Source: a virus. From it: a stretch of 33,908 nucleotides of DNA. The notes under the pieces are model-generated. The model searched no databases. It was not told the origin of the DNA and saw only the letters and a list, made by a program, of their open reading frames with translations. The DNA is taken from the IMG/VR virus record IMGVR_UViG_3300047312_000118, positions 1 to 33,908 of that record; one strand, 5' to 3'. The position numbers and the translations under genes were made by a program. Shown here piece by piece: positions 3,576 through 33,908 of the stretch (the stretch's first letter is position 1; every line of letters begins with the position of its first letter).

Positions 3576-6077
3576 ATGGGCGCAGCCAAGCCGTTGCCGA
3601 ACGATCCTGATACCTCAATGTACATGAGCAATCAGGAGCTGGCGCAGTTCAGCGCAGGACGGAGTACGCCCATCGCTCCGTCCTTCTTCTCGCGCCTCGG
3701 CCAGGCGGCGCGCTACGTCATCACCGGCGCGACCGAGGCGTGGTTCGGTCCGCTTCAGCCGCTGGCCCCGATCCCGCCGCAGATAGAGAGCGCTCAGGTC
3801 AAGGGGCGCCGGCGCGACTACCAGGCCGGCGAGAACCTCAATCAGCGGCCGCGCGGCTACGAGCCGGTTACCTTCGACGACCTTCGCGGCCTCAGCCGCA
3901 CCTGCGACGTGATGCGGCTCGTGATCCAGACCCGTCTGGATCAGATGAGCGCGCTGGACTGGCAGATACGGGTCAGGCGCGATCCGGAGGACGCCAACAA
4001 GAAGTCCACCATGAGCCAGGACCAGCGAAACCGGGTCAAGGCAATCACCGAGTTCATGCAGCAGCCGGACCAGGAGCACGACTATCGTCAGTGGACGCGG
4101 ATGTTCCTGGAGGATCACTTCGTCATTGACGCGGTCGCCGTCTACAAGCGCCCGACGCGCGCCGGGAAGCTCTACTCGCTGGACCTCATCGACGGTGGCT
4201 CCATCACGCCGAAGCTGGATGGCTACGGCCGGCGCCCGTTCCCGCCCGACGTGGCCTATCAGCAAATCCTCAAGGGCGTTCCCGCGGTTGACTACACCAG
4301 CGATGAGCTGTACTACGTCGTGGAGAACCCGACGACCAACCACCTCTACGGCTACTCGCGGGTGGAGCAGGTTCTGCTGACGGCCAACATCGCCGTGCGG
4401 CGCGCGCTCTTTCAGCTGGAGTATTACACCAAGGGCTCTCAGCCAGACGCCTTCCTGGCGCTTCCCGAGACCTGGGACGTGGACACGATCAAGGACTTTC
4501 AGACGTGGCTGGACTCCCTCAAGCAGCAGCGCCGCGCGCTGCGCGTCATTCCTGGAGCCGGCGCGGGCCAGCGCTACATCCCGACGAAGGAGCCGGTGCT
4601 CAAGGACGAGTACGACGACTACCTGAACCGGCTGATCTGCTTCGCCTTCTCCGTTGCGCCCACCGCGCTCGTGAAGATGATGAACCGAGCGCAGAGCGAG
4701 ACGCAGCACGATCAGGCGCTGGAGGAGGGCCTTGGCCCCACCATGCGCTTCTACACCGGCTTCTGGAACCGGGTCATCCGCACCGAGTTCAACTCTCCGG
4801 ACCTGGAGTACGCCTACGTTGAGGAGACGGCCGTGGACCCGCAGGTTCAGGCCACCATTGACGCAGCGCTGGCCGGCGCCGGCATCTACACGATTGATGA
4901 AATCAGGTCGCGGCGCGGCGATGATGCGTTCGGTGGCGCGGCCGCGCTCCCGATGGTCAAGACCGCGACCGGCTACGTCACGGTGGGCGCGAACGTGCCC
5001 GAGGAGGATGGCGGCGACCTGGAGGAACCTGACCCCGCCACGCAGGCGCCGATGCTGGACGCCAGCGGCAAGCCGGTTCCGCACGACTCCACCGGCAAGC
5101 CGCTCAGTCCGCCGGCCAAGCCGAACGACAAGAACCCGCAGGCCAATCAGCAGGGCAAGAACCCCGAGGGCCCGGGCAAGCCGGCGAAGACGCAGAACGG
5201 GCCAGGCGCTGCGGAGCAGGTCAAGAAGCTCGCCAAGCGCGACAAGTTCAAGGGCCGGAAGGTTCTGGCCGTGCGTGGAGCGCCGGCGCGCGTCCGCCGC
5301 GCAGCGGTAGCCAAGCTGACCAGGAAGATCGCGCCACTGCTCAAGGAGCTGGGCAAGCACGTCGCCCACCAGGCGAGTGTCAAGCTGTTCAAGGGAGAGC
5401 TGACGCGCAAGCTGCGGAAGTCGGAGGAGGACTATCGCGACTTCATTGACGGGCTGGACCTCAGCTCGCTGGCGATCGTCGCCGCGACCACCAGCCCCGA
5501 GGTTCAGGAGATTGCGCAGGCCGCTGGAATGTCGGCGCTGGCCGTGCTCGGGGTGGACGACAACTCCGAACTCGTGGGTCAGGTCAGTCAGGATGCCGTG
5601 GACTACGCCAAGCAACGCGCGGCATATCTCGTGGGCAAGCGCATTCTGGATGACGGCTCAATCGTTGACAACCCGAACGCCGAGTACCAGATCGACGACA
5701 CCACGCGGGACATGCTGCGCAGCCTGATAACCGACAGCCTCGGCAGCTCGGACACGGCGCAAGCGCTCATCGACAAGATAGAGGAGGGCTTCCCCTTCAG
5801 CGATGATCGCGCGCGCATGATAGCGTACACGGAGATTGGCAACGCCAACGCGACCGGCACGCTCAATGGCTTCATGGCCGCGCGCGATGCCGGCGTGGAG
5901 AACGAGAAGGCGTGGATGACCTCGGGTGGCGACGGCTGCTGTGACGACTGCACTGCGAACGAGGATCAGGGCCCGATCCCGCTCGATGAGGACTTTCAAT
6001 CCGGCGATGATGCCCCCCTGGCTCACCCGAACTGCCAGTGCGTGCTCGTTTCCGTGGTTGCCGGTGAGGAGGACTGA
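3576..6077 (+). CDS. Portal protein fused to MuF-type head morphogenesis domain
   Basis: An 833-residue fusion. The N-terminal half (about 40-450) looks like a portal: 'MSALDWQIRV' near residue 120 and an 'IPGAGAG' loop. A Pro/Lys/Gln-rich linker covers about 514-560. The C-terminal part is a Mu gpF/SPP1 gp7-like domain: 'ARMIAYTEIGNANATG' near 745, then a paired-cysteine 'GCCDDC' near 787 and the closing 'HPNCQC' near 818, the family's signature Cys/His pattern. Portals form the DNA entry ring; MuF proteins are minor head proteins. The ATG at 3576 has CGGAG directly against it, which is poor spacing, so ATG at 3618 or 3624 remains possible. Confidence 0.88.
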   Translation: MGAAKPLPNDPDTSMYMSNQELAQFSAGRSTPIAPSFFSRLGQAARYVITGATEAWFGPLQPLAPIPPQIESAQVKGRRRDYQAGENLNQRPRGYEPVTFDDLRGLSRTCDVMRLVIQTRLDQMSALDWQIRVRRDPEDANKKSTMSQDQRNRVKAITEFMQQPDQEHDYRQWTRMFLEDHFVIDAVAVYKRPTRAGKLYSLDLIDGGSITPKLDGYGRRPFPPDVAYQQILKGVPAVDYTSDELYYVVENPTTNHLYGYSRVEQVLLTANIAVRRALFQLEYYTKGSQPDAFLALPETWDVDTIKDFQTWLDSLKQQRRALRVIPGAGAGQRYIPTKEPVLKDEYDDYLNRLICFAFSVAPTALVKMMNRAQSETQHDQALEEGLGPTMRFYTGFWNRVIRTEFNSPDLEYAYVEETAVDPQVQATIDAALAGAGIYTIDEIRSRRGDDAFGGAAALPMVKTATGYVTVGANVPEEDGGDLEEPDPATQAPMLDASGKPVPHDSTGKPLSPPAKPNDKNPQANQQGKNPEGPGKPAKTQNGPGAAEQVKKLAKRDKFKGRKVLAVRGAPARVRRAAVAKLTRKIAPLLKELGKHVAHQASVKLFKGELTRKLRKSEEDYRDFIDGLDLSSLAIVAATTSPEVQEIAQAAGMSALAVLGVDDNSELVGQVSQDAVDYAKQRAAYLVGKRILDDGSIVDNPNAEYQIDDTTRDMLRSLITDSLGSSDTAQALIDKIEEGFPFSDDRARMIAYTEIGNANATGTLNGFMAARDAGVENEKAWMTSGGDGCCDDCTANEDQGPIPLDEDFQSGDDAPLAHPNCQCVLVSVVAGEED

Positions 6078-28161: not shown

Positions 28162-28184
28162 CATTTGTGGAAAGGGCTGGGATC

Positions 28185-29147
28185 ATGAAACGGTACATTC
28201 TCACGATTGACGGCGGCGGGATTCGCGGGCTTCTCCCGGCGATGCTGCTGCAGCAGGTGGAGATTCGCCTGAACGCTACGCTTCGCAAGCGGTTCTCCAT
28301 GATCGCCGGGACCTCCACCGGCGGCATCCTGGCCTGCGGGCTCTACGCCGGCGTCTACACCGGCAAGCTCGTTGACCTCTACGACGAGCGCGGGCCGGCG
28401 ATCTTTCAAAGATCGCTCCTTCGTAGCTTCATGACCGGGTTCGGGCTGTGGGCGCCGCGCTACTCGGCCGCCAGCCTGGAGCGGGAGCTGCTCCAGGTTC
28501 TTGGCCCGATGCTGCTGGGAACCCTCAGCCCGACGGAGCTGCTGGTGCCCACCTACTGCGTCCGGCTCCCCACGTGCGAGGACACGGACGGCGACGGGGT
28601 GGTGGAGGGCCGGGCCACGCTGTTCTTCAAGTCATGGGAGGCGCGGACGGACCCGGCGCTGAACTTCATGCTCAGGGACGTGGCCCGCGCCACCAGTGCG
28701 GCGCCAGTCTACTTCCCGGCCGCCGAGATTCGCAACCTCAAGGGCGAGCCCTTCCTCTGCGTGGACGGCGGGACCTACGCCAACAACCCGGCGATGGACG
28801 CCGCGGCGGACGCGCGCCGGCTGTGGCCGGACGACGAGCTGGTGGTGATCAGTCTCGGCACCGGCTCGCTGATCAAGGCCGTGCCGGGTTCCGGGAACTG
28901 GGGCGCCGCGCAGTGGCTCCCCACGATCAGCAACGTCTTCATTGACGGCGCGGCGGACGTGGTCAGCTACCAGATGACCCACGTCGCCAAGCTGGACCCC
29001 CGGGTGACCTTTCTTCGCTGCGAGACGGCGATCACCGGCGCGTCGGAGCAGATGGACGCGACCGGGCCGGCCGACATGGCTCAGCTTCGTCTTCTGGCCG
29101 GGAGGTACGTCAATGCGCACCTCCCGCGGGTGCTGGCCCTGTTCTAG
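28185..29147 (+). CDS. Patatin-like phospholipase
   Basis: A 320-residue putative lipid acyl hydrolase. All key patatin parts are visible: the oxyanion 'DGGGIRG' at 9-15, the nucleophile elbow 'GTSTGG' at 42-47 with Ser44, and the second catalytic residue in 'DGGTYANNP' with Asp194. Length matches small bacterial patatins and CapV-type effectors. ATG 28185 follows AAAGGG by 8 nt. There is no signal peptide or membrane helix, so it should act from the cytoplasm. An odd acidic 'CEDTDGDGVVEG' loop lies at 131-142. It lies just after a strong terminator. No cyclase or sensor gene of a CBASS system accompanies it. Confidence 0.9.
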   Translation: MKRYILTIDGGGIRGLLPAMLLQQVEIRLNATLRKRFSMIAGTSTGGILACGLYAGVYTGKLVDLYDERGPAIFQRSLLRSFMTGFGLWAPRYSAASLERELLQVLGPMLLGTLSPTELLVPTYCVRLPTCEDTDGDGVVEGRATLFFKSWEARTDPALNFMLRDVARATSAAPVYFPAAEIRNLKGEPFLCVDGGTYANNPAMDAAADARRLWPDDELVVISLGTGSLIKAVPGSGNWGAAQWLPTISNVFIDGAADVVSYQMTHVAKLDPRVTFLRCETAITGASEQMDATGPADMAQLRLLAGRYVNAHLPRVLALF

Positions 29148-29639: not shown

Positions 29640-30023
29640 TTACCACCCATGGGAGGCCATCGTCATGAGAACCACGATGCCGGCCAGCGTCAGGACGCCG
29701 ACGACCCCGGCGGCGAGGCGTTCCCGCCAGCGCGGGTTCCCGGCGATCGGGGGCGGGGGTTCGGCCGTCACCATCAGGTCGTGCGGGTGCGGCCAGTGGC
29801 TCTTGAGGTAGGAGCCGTTCGGCTCCCAAGTTGAGAAAATGCAGTGGGGCGTAAAGCGCCCGACGATCCCGGTGGGGAGAACCTCAATCACGCGAACGGA
29901 GTGACCGTCCCGCGTGCGCACCACGTCCTCGGGCGCCAGCTTGCGCCAGCTTCCCGTCACCACTACTCCCAGGATCGCGGACGGCGTGTCCGGGAGCGCC
30001 TCGTAGTTGAACAAGTCGGTCAT
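29640..30023 (-). CDS. Unknown protein with C-terminal membrane helix
   Basis: A 127-residue protein of unknown function with AAGGGA 7 nt before its ATG. The N-terminal part is soluble and partly beta ('DVVRTRDGHSVRVIEVLP'); 'HPHDLMVTAEPPPPIAG' is a Pro-rich linker. A hydrophobic helix ('LAAGVVGVLTLAGIVVLMTM', about 103-122) ends the protein, making it a likely tail-anchored membrane protein with its main domain in the cytoplasm. It overlaps the upstream gene by 4 nt. Confidence 0.7.
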   Translation of the reverse strand: MTDLFNYEALPDTPSAILGVVVTGSWRKLAPEDVVRTRDGHSVRVIEVLPTGIVGRFTPHCIFSTWEPNGSYLKSHWPHPHDLMVTAEPPPPIAGNPRWRERLAAGVVGVLTLAGIVVLMTMASHGW

Positions 30024-30370
30024 AGCTTAATCCCTTCCAGGTGGTGACGATCGCCGCAGTGCGGACACTGGCAGACAACCATTAAGGACTGGCTGACGGC
30101 CTCGCCATCCTCCTCCGGCTCGTCGTCGGGGTCGCCGTCCAGCTCGTCCAGCAGGCGGACGTAGGGCGCCGCGTCCTCGTGGTAGCCGGCGGCGATCATC
30201 TCCTCCACCAGCGCCTCCAGCTGGAGCCGCAGCGCGATCACCTCGGCCGCGTGGCTGGCCCGCGCGCTGGAGAAGGGGCCGGTGATCATCCTCCGGCCGG
30301 CGAAGGGGAACGACACCCACCACCCGGGCAGCCCCGTGACCTGGATGGTCTCAGTCTCGTAGTCGCTCAT
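30020..30370 (-). CDS. Unknown protein with C-terminal Cys/His motif
   Basis: A 116-residue protein of unknown function, overlapping both neighbours by 4 nt. The middle is a charged helix ('EVIALRLQLEALVEEMIAAG') and an acidic stretch ('DELDGDPDDEPEEDGE'). The end has 'VCQCPHCGDRHHLEG', with three cysteines and two histidines, which could bind zinc. It immediately follows the TOPRIM protein gene and is likely co-translated with it. Confidence 0.7.
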   Translation of the reverse strand: MSDYETETIQVTGLPGWWVSFPFAGRRMITGPFSSARASHAAEVIALRLQLEALVEEMIAAGYHEDAAPYVRLLDELDGDPDDEPEEDGEAVSQSLMVVCQCPHCGDRHHLEGIKL

Positions 30371-31272
30371 TCTTCATTACCTCCCATGTCCTCTAGCACG
30401 CGGTCCAGCTCGTCCTTGTCGGCGGCCTCCTGGGCGAGCGCCTCGCTCCACAGGGTCTCGTCGCGCACCTTCCGGACGGCGTCGCTGATCAGCTCGGCGA
30501 TCGCGTCGGGAGGGAGGGCGTCCAGCTCCCACGAGGAGGAGCCGTGCTCGGCCACGTAGGCGGTCGCGCGGGCGTCCGAGAGCTTGGCCGGGTTCGGCGG
30601 CATCCTGTACCTGTCCACCTGCGGCCGGTTGAGCGCGAGGCGAACCACCTGAACGTCCACGCCGGCGAACATGGAGAGGCGCTCCCGGTTGTCCCGCGTC
30701 ATGTCCAGCCCCGACGGGTCGTGGTCGCCGAGGTGGAACAGGATCGGGCGCTGGCCGTCGCGAACGGAGCCGGCGAGCTGCTGGCCGAGGCGCCACTGCT
30801 GGGACTGCGAGGAGTAGCCGCGGAAGGAGCAGAACGGGACGCGGAGGTCGTGGCAGACGTTGCCGATCACCCCGATCATGGCGTCCTTCTCCACGCCGAC
30901 GACCGGACGGAACGGCTGACCGCGCCAGAGGTCAACCTTGTAGCCGGCGCGCGCCGAGGCGACCGCGTGCGTCGGCGAGCTGTACATGACGTTGTCCCGC
31001 GTGTAGCGCGTCCGGTCCTCGATGGCCCTCCAGCTCACCAGTCCGGCCAGCCGGCCGTCGCTGATCAAGGTTCCGAGCCGGTCGTAGGCGCGGTCCTCGT
31101 TGGGGATCACGTTGCGCGTCACCAGCTGGTAGTAGAGCTGGCGCAGCGTCATGGAGTAGCCCTTTCCCTCATACTCGTGGATGATTTCGTTGGCGCGGCC
31201 CAGCAGGATCATCGCGTCCGCGCCAAACTTCTTCGGGACGTAGCAGCGGTAGTGGCCGGGGTCCTCGCTCAC
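30367..31272 (-). CDS. TOPRIM protein resembling Spo11/topoisomerase VI subunit A
   Basis: A 301-residue protein. Residues 40-90 look like a winged-helix domain with paired tyrosines Y47/Y48 in 'MTLRQLYYQLVTRNVIPN', then 'YDRLGTLISDGRLAGLV' and 'WRAIEDRTR'. A TOPRIM metal-binding domain follows: E128 in 'VVGVEKDAM' and D183/D185 in 'ILFHLGDHDPSGLD'. Winged helix with tyrosine followed by TOPRIM is the plan of Spo11 and topo VI A, which cut DNA through the tyrosine. Stand-alone homologues ('Mini-A') are known in mobile elements. No B subunit is seen. GTG start overlaps the upstream stop (GTGA). A primase-like or non-cutting role is also possible. Confidence 0.75.
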   Translation of the reverse strand: MSEDPGHYRCYVPKKFGADAMILLGRANEIIHEYEGKGYSMTLRQLYYQLVTRNVIPNEDRAYDRLGTLISDGRLAGLVSWRAIEDRTRYTRDNVMYSSPTHAVASARAGYKVDLWRGQPFRPVVGVEKDAMIGVIGNVCHDLRVPFCSFRGYSSQSQQWRLGQQLAGSVRDGQRPILFHLGDHDPSGLDMTRDNRERLSMFAGVDVQVVRLALNRPQVDRYRMPPNPAKLSDARATAYVAEHGSSSWELDALPPDAIAELISDAVRKVRDETLWSEALAQEAADKDELDRVLEDMGGNEE

Positions 31273-32312
31273 GAGCGACCGATCCTGGGCGCGTGCGAGG
31301 CGCCCCCGTCAACCTGGCGGTCCAGCTTGATCTTCTCGGCCACGTCGTAGCCGCTCCAGTAGGCGGACTTGTCGGTGGTGTCCCGCGGACCGTTGCCGGA
31401 GCGGCGGCCGCCCCGCCGGCGGCTCCAGTACGCCCGGTCCTCCGCCGCCTCCCTTTCGGCCTTGGCCCGCGCCTCCTCGGGGTTGGCCTTCGCCCATCGG
31501 GTGTGCGCCTCCTCGGCCTCCCGCCGCCGGCGGGCGTCCTCCGCCCGCTGAGCGGCGCGCTTGGCCGTCCAGCCCTCGCCGTGGAGGAAGTCGTCGTTGG
31601 CCTCCTTCTCCCGCTGCTCGTGATCGGCGAGCGTCAGCGCCGTCGCGGTGGAGACCCCGGCGCGCTTCGCTCGCGCCGCGTCCCGCCGCGCCCGCTCGGC
31701 CTCCTTGAGCCTCATCTGCTCGCGCCGGTCCTCCACCTGCTCGATGATCCTGGCGGCGCAGCCCTTGCGGAAGCTCACGGCCCAGTTGGAGAAGCGCACC
31801 GCGTTGGCGCTGCCCGAGTAGACGTAGCCGAGGTTGACGCGCTCGCCGAGGCGCTCCAGGGTAACGCGCTCAATGGCCTCCTCAAGATACTGCGCCAGCG
31901 CGATCGTGGCCCGCGTGTTGACGATGCGGCCGACGAGGCGATGGCGCTTCTTGTTGACGTGGCCCTCGGTCGTGTAGCGGTCGCGCCCCGTCCCGACGCG
32001 CTTGGACCTCGTGAAGACCCGGTAGTCCTGCGTCCAGTAGAGGCAGAAGTTCAGCTTGGCGACGGAGTCCCACAGCTCGCGCTGGTAGGAGTAGAAGCCG
32101 CCGTCCACCTTGGCCTCCTCCCGCTTGCCATCCTTGACGGCCGCGGAGTTCTCCACCGTGGCGGCGTCGAGGTTGTAGCGCGCCAGCAGCTCCTGCGCCT
32201 TGGCCGCGGCGCTCGCCGCCTCGTTCTCGTTGGGGTTCTTCGCCGCGAGGTTGAGGAGCTTCTTGATGCGCTCCAGAACCTCGTCCTCGGGCAGCTGGCC
32301 AGCGGCGCTCAT
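31269..32312 (-). CDS. DUF2786 domain protein
   Basis: A 347-residue protein. Residues about 9-55 match DUF2786 ('VLERIKKLLNLAAKNPNENEA' in part, then 'AQELLARYNLDAATV'), a domain of unknown function common in phages. The middle (about 70-190) resembles the DUF7168-type partner ('WDSVAKLNFCLYW', 'RLVGRIVNTRATIALAQYLEEAIERV' in part). The last third is very rich in Arg, Glu and Ala and probably a long helix, with 'SAYWSGYDVAEKIKLDRQV' near the end. It overlaps genes on both sides, so it belongs to the same operon as the TOPRIM protein and helicase. Its function is unknown. Confidence 0.85.
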   Translation of the reverse strand: MSAAGQLPEDEVLERIKKLLNLAAKNPNENEAASAAAKAQELLARYNLDAATVENSAAVKDGKREEAKVDGGFYSYQRELWDSVAKLNFCLYWTQDYRVFTRSKRVGTGRDRYTTEGHVNKKRHRLVGRIVNTRATIALAQYLEEAIERVTLERLGERVNLGYVYSGSANAVRFSNWAVSFRKGCAARIIEQVEDRREQMRLKEAERARRDAARAKRAGVSTATALTLADHEQREKEANDDFLHGEGWTAKRAAQRAEDARRRREAEEAHTRWAKANPEEARAKAEREAAEDRAYWSRRRGGRRSGNGPRDTTDKSAYWSGYDVAEKIKLDRQVDGGASHAPRIGRS

Positions 32313-32538: not shown

Positions 32539-33908
32539 CTATTCATCGCCGGCGATGAAGATCAGCGTCTTCATCGCCCGCGTCCACGCGACGTACTGGA
32601 GGTTCAGCTCCTGCTGGTACTGATGCTCCTGCCGGGCCCACTTGGAGGGGCACAGCTCGGGCCGGTAGATGCCGACGACGTTCCACTCCCGGCCCTTGGC
32701 CTTGTGCATCGTGGAGAGCGTCAGCACGCCGTTGGCGTCCGAGAACAGACCCTCCAGCCGGGCGACCAGCTTGGGGATGGTCCGCTCGTTCTCGTTTAGG
32801 CTCCCGATGACGGTCAGGATGCAGGCCACGCGATCGGAGACGGCCTCCGCCTTCCCCTCCTCGCCCTTGGCCGTGAACTTGGCCACCTCGCGCGAGCGGA
32901 ACGCCTCCAGCTTGCCGAGGAGGTTATCAATGCCGCGCGCCCGCTGGCGATGGATCAGCTGGACGAGGCCGGCGCCAATCTCCTTGCCGAGAACCACGCA
33001 GCCCACGCCCTCGGCGATGAGCTTGAACGCGAGACTGATCAGCGGTGAGGTGTTGCGGCAGAGGATGGCGTCGTGGGCCCCGAGCTGCTTGAGGGCGTCC
33101 TTGAGCCCGAGGTTCAAAACCTCCCCCTGCTCCGCCGCCGGCGCCACCTCGAAGTATGGGACGAGGGAGCGCGCCAGTTCGCCGACCGCCTTGGGGCAGC
33201 GGTAGCTGACGGTCAGGGGGAGTTCCACGCAGTTGAACTCGTGCTGGATCAGGTCCATCGCGTCGTGGCTCGCGCCGGTGAAGCCGTAGATGGCCTGCCG
33301 CGGGTCGCCGACGGCGATCAGCCGGCCGCCGGGGCGGAGCGCCAGCTTGGCCAGCGCGCGCCGCACGGGGTTGGTGTCCTGCGCCTCGTCAATTATGACG
33401 TAGTCGTTTTGCCACAGCCGCAGCCGCCACAGGAGCGGGAGGTAGAGCTGGTCGTCAAAGTCAATCATGCCCTTCTCGGCGCGGCGGTTGGACTCGGTCA
33501 GCACCTTGCGGGCCAGCTCCACGGCGCGGGCCTCGGTGGCCTCCTCGTCGTCTAGGAACAGGTCGTGGTGCTGGATCAGGTCGTACCAGCGCTCATCGGT
33601 GTCGGGGACGAGGCAGCCGATGCCCTCTCCCTTGGCGAGGCCGACGAGCTTGCAGACGAAGTCCGCGTACATCTCGTGGTCCTCGGGAATCATGCGGTCA
33701 TGGCAGATGGTCCGCACCTTGGAGGAGGTGTTCTCCACCTCGGCCGGCTTCTTGCCGAGGCGCCTGCAGACGGCGTTGAACCCGACGGAGTGAAAGGTGG
33801 AGGCCCGCACGTTCTTGAAGGGCCGGTTCAGCTCCTCGCCGAGCGCTGCAATCTTGGCCTTCATCTCCTTGGCTATGGCCGTGTTGAAGGCGAAGACCTG
33901 AACGGAGG
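32539..33908 (-). CDS. UvrD/PcrA-like superfamily 1 helicase (partial)
   Basis: The gene runs off the right edge; at least 456 residues are present and the Walker A part lies outside. Visible superfamily 1A motifs, in order: Ia ('VFAFNTAIAKEM', at the edge), 'RASTFHSVGFNAV' (Ib region), II 'YVIIDEAQDTN', III 'LIAVGDPRQAIYGFTGA', IV 'LTVSYRCP', V 'LSTMHKAKGREWNVV' and VI 'LNLQYVAWTRAM'. Such enzymes unwind DNA 3' to 5' in replication or recombination. The 2B region is short, nearer compact phage helicases than PcrA. It is probably the upstream gene of this leftward operon's visible part. Confidence 0.92.
   Translation of the reverse strand, partial: SVQVFAFNTAIAKEMKAKIAALGEELNRPFKNVRASTFHSVGFNAVCRRLGKKPAEVENTSSKVRTICHDRMIPEDHEMYADFVCKLVGLAKGEGIGCLVPDTDERWYDLIQHHDLFLDDEEATEARAVELARKVLTESNRRAEKGMIDFDDQLYLPLLWRLRLWQNDYVIIDEAQDTNPVRRALAKLALRPGGRLIAVGDPRQAIYGFTGASHDAMDLIQHEFNCVELPLTVSYRCPKAVGELARSLVPYFEVAPAAEQGEVLNLGLKDALKQLGAHDAILCRNTSPLISLAFKLIAEGVGCVVLGKEIGAGLVQLIHRQRARGIDNLLGKLEAFRSREVAKFTAKGEEGKAEAVSDRVACILTVIGSLNENERTIPKLVARLEGLFSDANGVLTLSTMHKAKGREWNVVGIYRPELCPSKWARQEHQYQQELNLQYVAWTRAMKTLIFIAGDE

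Follow-up and report, generated by a model that had tools for sequence, protein, structure and literature searches.

Spo11 cuts chromosomes and thereby starts meiotic recombination. Unlike the viral Mini-A proteins, it belongs to eukaryotic meiosis and has a Top6B-like partner; it provides a type IIB DNA-cleaving core without strand passage, as is proposed below for Mini-A. The primary paper on the Mini-A family is reportedly that of Takahashi et al. 2020. Mini-A proteins are truncated Top6A homologues of archaeal viruses and phages (PMC7614492). The family has also been described elsewhere (PMC8185306), was regarded in a 2024 paper as an ancient viral homologue of Topo VI-A/Spo11 (PMC11302465), and had its function given as unknown in one review (PMC8084294). 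A 2021 review illustrates the domains of Mini-A with the protein of Pseudomonas phage NP1 (PMC7614492).

In M. mazei Top6, Y106 is the catalytic residue, whereas E202, D254, and D256 bind metal, and a salt bridge between R102 and E342 acts as a clasp that holds the tyrosine back and controls cleavage (PMC13040014). Mouse SPO11 needs no partners to cut DNA: it acts as a dimer and remains covalently linked to the DNA (PMC11922746). A missing B subunit is therefore no bar to cleavage. Topo VIII, like Mini-A, is a type IIB family residing on mobile elements. It is a full type IIB topoisomerase including an ATPase part (PMC7614492), which the protein studied here lacks. The Topo VIII enzymes tested showed weak activity, and many appear partly inactivated (PMC7614492).

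The window analyzed in this study, a virus record 33,908 bases long, is probably a fragment of a genome. The following genes, all on the minus strand, form the locus of interest:

30020–30370 (-): small ORF, 116 aa, from the ORF call
30367–31272 (-): Mini-A gene, 301 aa with a GTG start, from the ORF call; PHROG 6247 'DNA topoisomerase', E = 2.3e-92
31269–32312 (-): DUF2786 gene, 347 aa; PF10979, E = 1.2e-14
32539–33906 (-): UvrD-family helicase; PF00580, E = 2.3e-18, and PHROG 1967; its 5' end is cut at the window edge

The original prediction had described a linkage of the central gene by overlaps to a DUF2786 gene and small unknown proteins, and a UvrD-like helicase close by, and this layout was confirmed. 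The Mini-A start shares 4 bp (GTGA) with the stop of the upstream DUF2786 gene, and its stop shares another 4 bp (ATGA) with the downstream small ORF. The small ORF had no significant Pfam or PHROG match and, when the ORFs of 89 loci were clustered, occurred only in the window and in the near-identical contig L002, in which the UvrD-type helicase is 503 aa long. The remaining window forms a region for the structure and lysis functions of a tailed phage, with terminase, portal, tape measure, tail proteins, and endolysin. Within this region, the C-terminal part (705–832) of the 833-aa portal protein (3576–6077, plus strand) matches minor head and head morphogenesis proteins, which suggests a fused portal. 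A patatin-like phospholipase (28167–29147, plus strand; PF01734, E = 2.3e-26) closes the tail and lysis region and adjoins the early genes.

The window protein is not new; it belongs to the known but poorly studied Mini-A family of stand-alone Topo VI-A/Spo11 relatives, and we regard this family identity as virtually certain. In tblastn searches, the NP1 protein (gp49) was 42.6% identical to it over query residues 15–277 (E = 1e-62), and both were placed in one supported family on a 119-row tree. The two proteins have the same length, the same two-domain plan, and the same tyrosine and TOPRIM residues, and both are encoded by phages, with no B subunit found. They differ in their surroundings: NP1 Mini-A adjoins a Sak4-like annealing gene, whereas the clade of the window is coupled to a DUF2786 gene instead. 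Tblastn detected relatives in 74 phage records, whose hosts span several bacterial phyla; the best matches were those of Pseudanabaena phage Pam3 (58%) and Rhizobium phage RHph_TM26 (52%). The viral collection yielded at least 543 relatives, and 187 more came from scanning bacterial and archaeal genomes, a few archaeal MAGs included.

General models were less informative. No Pfam, NCBIfam, or PADLOC model named the window protein, and neither TP6A_N nor the Top6A TOPRIM model of Pfam matched it significantly. A PDB sequence search with the protein alone returned chance matches only, and a search with a 16-row profile returned no match at E ≤ 10.

Some members of the family are unusual in themselves. 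Mini-A of Clavibacter phage 33 (L016:6016–7005) carries a tandem copy of a ~37-residue TOPRIM segment, possibly an assembly artefact. In Paenibacillus durus, a Mini-A gene lies on a circular 15-kb plasmid (L205:2564–6008) that also encodes a Zot-domain ATPase, and this element may be a small non-tailed phage. On Streptomyces mirabilis plasmid pI (L206:3980–8840), a divergent homologue (31% identical) is immediately followed by a Gabija-like pair of genes, one for an OLD-like TOPRIM ATPase and one for an ATP-dependent helicase.

Homology to Topo VI-A was further explored with AlphaFold2 models, which gave two domains:

31009–31224 (-): winged-helix domain, aa 17–88, from the AlphaFold2 model of aa 1–114 alone
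30466–30936 (-): TOPRIM domain, aa 113–269, from the AlphaFold2 model (pLDDT 89) and VIA-align

The model of the whole protein reached a pLDDT of 89 and a pTM of 0.82. In VIA-align comparisons with the PDB, Top6A (1d3y) was the top match both for the whole model (Z 8.6, residues 103–269) and for the winged helix modelled alone (pLDDT 88), in which residues 17–88 superposed on 72–143 of 1d3y (Z 7.6, rmsd 2.3 over 69 residues); as both Z values are only middling by VIA-align's own note, it is the agreement of both domains and of the motifs on which the likeness to Top6A rests. If the superposed winged-helix stretch is ungapped, Y48 falls on residue 103 of 1d3y. For the TOPRIM region, MksG (8b7f, Z 8.2) and JetD (7til, Z 7.8) were tied with Top6A, and neither OLD nuclease nor DnaG-type primase folds were among the matches listed. 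Foldseek found M. mazei Top6A as the only PDB match at E ≤ 0.001. The whole-chain overlay on this structure was poor (rmsd 16), which could result from a differing orientation of the domains.

When profiles of 71 Mini-A proteins and 13 archaeal Top6A sequences were aligned, they were collinear over 208 columns (hhalign P = 7e-4, but a modest probability of 26%). The alignment paired TLRQLYY with TLRELYY, VEK with the metal-site glutamate of Top6A, and GDHDP with DGDPW. The numbering of M. mazei was derived from a PDB sequence match, and the equivalent residues (window = M. mazei) are R44 = R102, Y48 = Y106, E128 = E202, D183 = D254, and D185 = D256. No Top6A was found in three archaeal MAGs, and the Top6A sequences were obtained from an archaeal phylum sample. 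Some genomes of this sample (G062, G072, and G082) encode a second, divergent Top6A-like protein of ~430 aa (E ~1e-25). The putative active-site residues are encoded as follows:

31129–31131 (-): Y48 codon, predicted catalytic tyrosine, equivalent to M. mazei Y106; invariant, from the profile alignment
30889–30891 (-): E128 codon, predicted metal site, equivalent to M. mazei E202; 71/71 and 81/81, from the profile alignment
30718–30726 (-): D183-H184-D185 codons within GDHDPSG, equivalent to D254/D256; invariant, from the profile alignment
30526–30528 (-): E249 codon in the SWELDAL motif; invariant

Because TLRQLYY48 aligns with M. mazei TLRELYY106, the predicted catalytic tyrosine is Y48 and not Y47. 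Conservation was assessed in two sets of relatives. Among 71 viral relatives, Y48 was conserved in all and Y47 in 69, and E128, D183, D185, and E249 were invariant; the tyrosine counts of this set are biased, since the scan pattern contained RQ[LV]YYQ. The second set, comprising 80 relatives from bacterial and archaeal genomes plus the query, is free of this bias because its search motifs lay elsewhere in the protein. Here, Y48, E128, D183, D185, and E249 were invariant (81/81) and Y47 was present in 80 of 81 sequences. R44, conserved in both sets, precedes Y48 by four residues, the same spacing as for R102 in Top6A. In plasmid homologues from Streptomyces and Rubrobacter (~28–31% identical), the motif reads WY or FY; Y47 is replaced and the equivalent of Y48 is kept. 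E249 is probably the counterpart of the clasp glutamate E342 (KAEQQAF), judged by motif and position and not by the local profile alignment; by eye, this position appears as Q in two divergent plasmid homologues. The assignment of Y48 as the predicted catalytic tyrosine and the conservation of the putative clasp arginine R44 are new points for Mini-A.

Thus, Y47, Y48, E128, D183, and D185, which the original prediction had picked from a single sequence, were confirmed in position and are conserved in both sets. The Spo11/Topo VI-A plan that it had read from them gained support from this conservation, from the profile alignment, and from two structure models, with both domains matching Top6A best when modelled and compared separately. 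The outcomes named in the original prediction as refuting it were not observed: the tyrosine is conserved, and the best structural matches listed included no OLD nuclease or primase. Altogether, the window protein shares with Topo VI-A from M. mazei and M. jannaschii the TLRxLYY winged helix, the TOPRIM E/DxD residues, the position of the clasp arginine, and both domain folds. It is shorter (~300 aa vs ~370 aa), and a B subunit was not found for its relatives.

Specifically, Topo-VIb_trans (PF09239) was absent from 16 complete relative phages and from 50 viral contigs, and HATPase_c was absent from the 16 complete phages; the control genomes were positive. Measured against Topoisomerase VI, the tyrosine and the TOPRIM acids of the A-subunit are present, and the GHKL/transducer B-subunit is absent from 16 complete relative genomes. 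The proposed lack of a B subunit was thereby borne out among the relatives; for the phage of the window itself we infer it, because the window genome is incomplete.

The gene neighbourhood was analyzed for further partners. The DUF2786 gene precedes Mini-A in all eight members of the window's clade (the window and seven relatives), and the two genes usually overlap or are adjacent. This clade has a support of 100/98, and the coupling corresponds to one change on the 119-row tree; the same arrangement is seen in Pam3, RHph_TM26, and the locus L020. This coupling, a new point, arose once in the window's clade and has been kept there, and it offers a lead to a partner. DUF2786 was rejected as a family-wide partner, as it is restricted to the near clade: it was present in Pam3 and TM26 and absent from the other 14 of 16 phage records searched.

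Clustering the ORFs of 89 loci revealed no constant neighbour. The commonest were an SNF2-type helicase (16 loci), UvrD (9), and DUF2786 (7), the last count being too low because a shadow ORF displaced DUF2786 in the window. An apparently conserved 354-aa neighbour was discarded as an antisense shadow of Mini-A itself. Sak4, considered as a constant recombination partner, was also rejected, with solid matches in 2 of 15 complete phages. In NP1 and PaMx25, Mini-A lies beside a Sak4 annealing protein and a DNA ligase, and other members lie beside a Cas4 exonuclease, a DNA polymerase, SSB, or helicases. For many members, these neighbours fit a replication and recombination setting, in which no recombination gene is constant.

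Taken as a whole, we consider it reasonably probable that Mini-A acts as a homodimer that breaks both strands of phage DNA in the course of replication or recombination and stays linked to the ends. Two copies would dimerize, and their TOPRIM domains would shape a DNA channel. In a composite site, Y48 of one subunit would attack the backbone held by the metal site (E128/D183/D185) of the other, resulting in a double-strand break whose 5' ends carry the protein through a tyrosyl link. From the example of Top6 and Spo11, such tyrosine-mediated cleavage by Mini-A is likely, and strand passage would not take place, given that there is no ATP-driven B subunit. Access of Y48 to the DNA would probably be limited by an R44–E249 salt bridge, by DNA bending, and by weak dimerization and, in the window's clade, possibly also by the translationally coupled DUF2786 protein. 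The literature searched contained no cleavage assay for Mini-A.

Such breaks would most likely serve to cut replication intermediates of the phage, so that recombination or replication can start or tangled DNA can be resolved. We see the odds of a role on the phage's own replicating DNA as about even. The recombination-dependent replication suggested in the original prediction may apply: replication or recombination genes stand beside many members, but UvrD is close by in some relatives only. As UvrD and the recombination genes are not constant partners, and Sak4 was solid in so few complete phages, we infer this role from the general context.

Alternatively, Mini-A could be a topoisomerase DNA gate that cleaves reversibly and relaxes or decatenates DNA. 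The driving role of Topo VI-B would then fall to an unrecognised partner from the phage or the host, for example a helicase, a host ATPase, or the DUF2786 protein. Conservation of R44 and probably of E249, the pair corresponding to the clasp that restrains Top6 cleavage, is consistent with such a gate, as are the translational coupling of DUF2786 in the window's clade and the ATP-independent relaxation of DNA by M. marina Topo VIII (PMC7614492). However, the 16 complete relative genomes encode no GHKL/transducer protein, the 89 loci share no constant neighbour, and DUF2786 is missing from most of the phage records searched, which makes this explanation rather unlikely. In a more specific version, the DUF2786 protein of the clade would stand in for Topo VI-B as a dedicated partner without GHKL character, bind Mini-A cotranslationally, and control dimerization, DNA choice, or cleavage. 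We consider this a long shot; if true, the DUF2786-controlled Mini-A would be a type IIB cutter whose regulation differs from that of both Topo VI and Spo11.

A further possibility is a hydrolytic, metal-dependent TOPRIM nuclease like JetD/MksG, the Wadjet nuclease, in which the winged-helix tyrosine would be merely structural. The window protein has the TOPRIM fold and the metal-binding acids in common with these proteins, the Z values of MksG and JetD lie within 1 of that of Top6A, and some family members gave weak DUF2399/JetD profile matches (best E 1.5e-4 and 4e-4). Nevertheless, Y48 and R44 are invariant and aligned to Y106 and R102 of Top6A, the winged helix alone retrieved Top6A first, and the window protein itself had no JetD/DUF2399 match in PADLOC or Pfam. 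In contrast, MksG acts with an SMC complex and has neither a winged-helix catalytic tyrosine nor a tyrosine candidate in its 5Y-CAP-like domain (PMC10123090). A purely hydrolytic enzyme is thus very improbable.

An attack on the host chromosome or on rival mobile elements, also raised in the original prediction, found no specific support and is similarly improbable: distant TOPRIM relatives act in Wadjet and Gabija defence (PMC13040014) and one divergent plasmid homologue precedes the OLD-like ATPase and helicase described above, but this pair does not adjoin the three other Streptomyces plasmid homologues checked, the members lie among replication, nucleotide, and packaging genes and not in accessory loci, and the window protein had no PADLOC match.

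If Mini-A cuts DNA without a B subunit, as in the break-making homodimer that we favor, it would show, in a tractable phage, how a topoisomerase gate can serve simply to make breaks. The clade-specific coupling to DUF2786 provides a concrete candidate partner, and because the family is so large in the viral collection, the question of what Mini-A does reaches well beyond this window.
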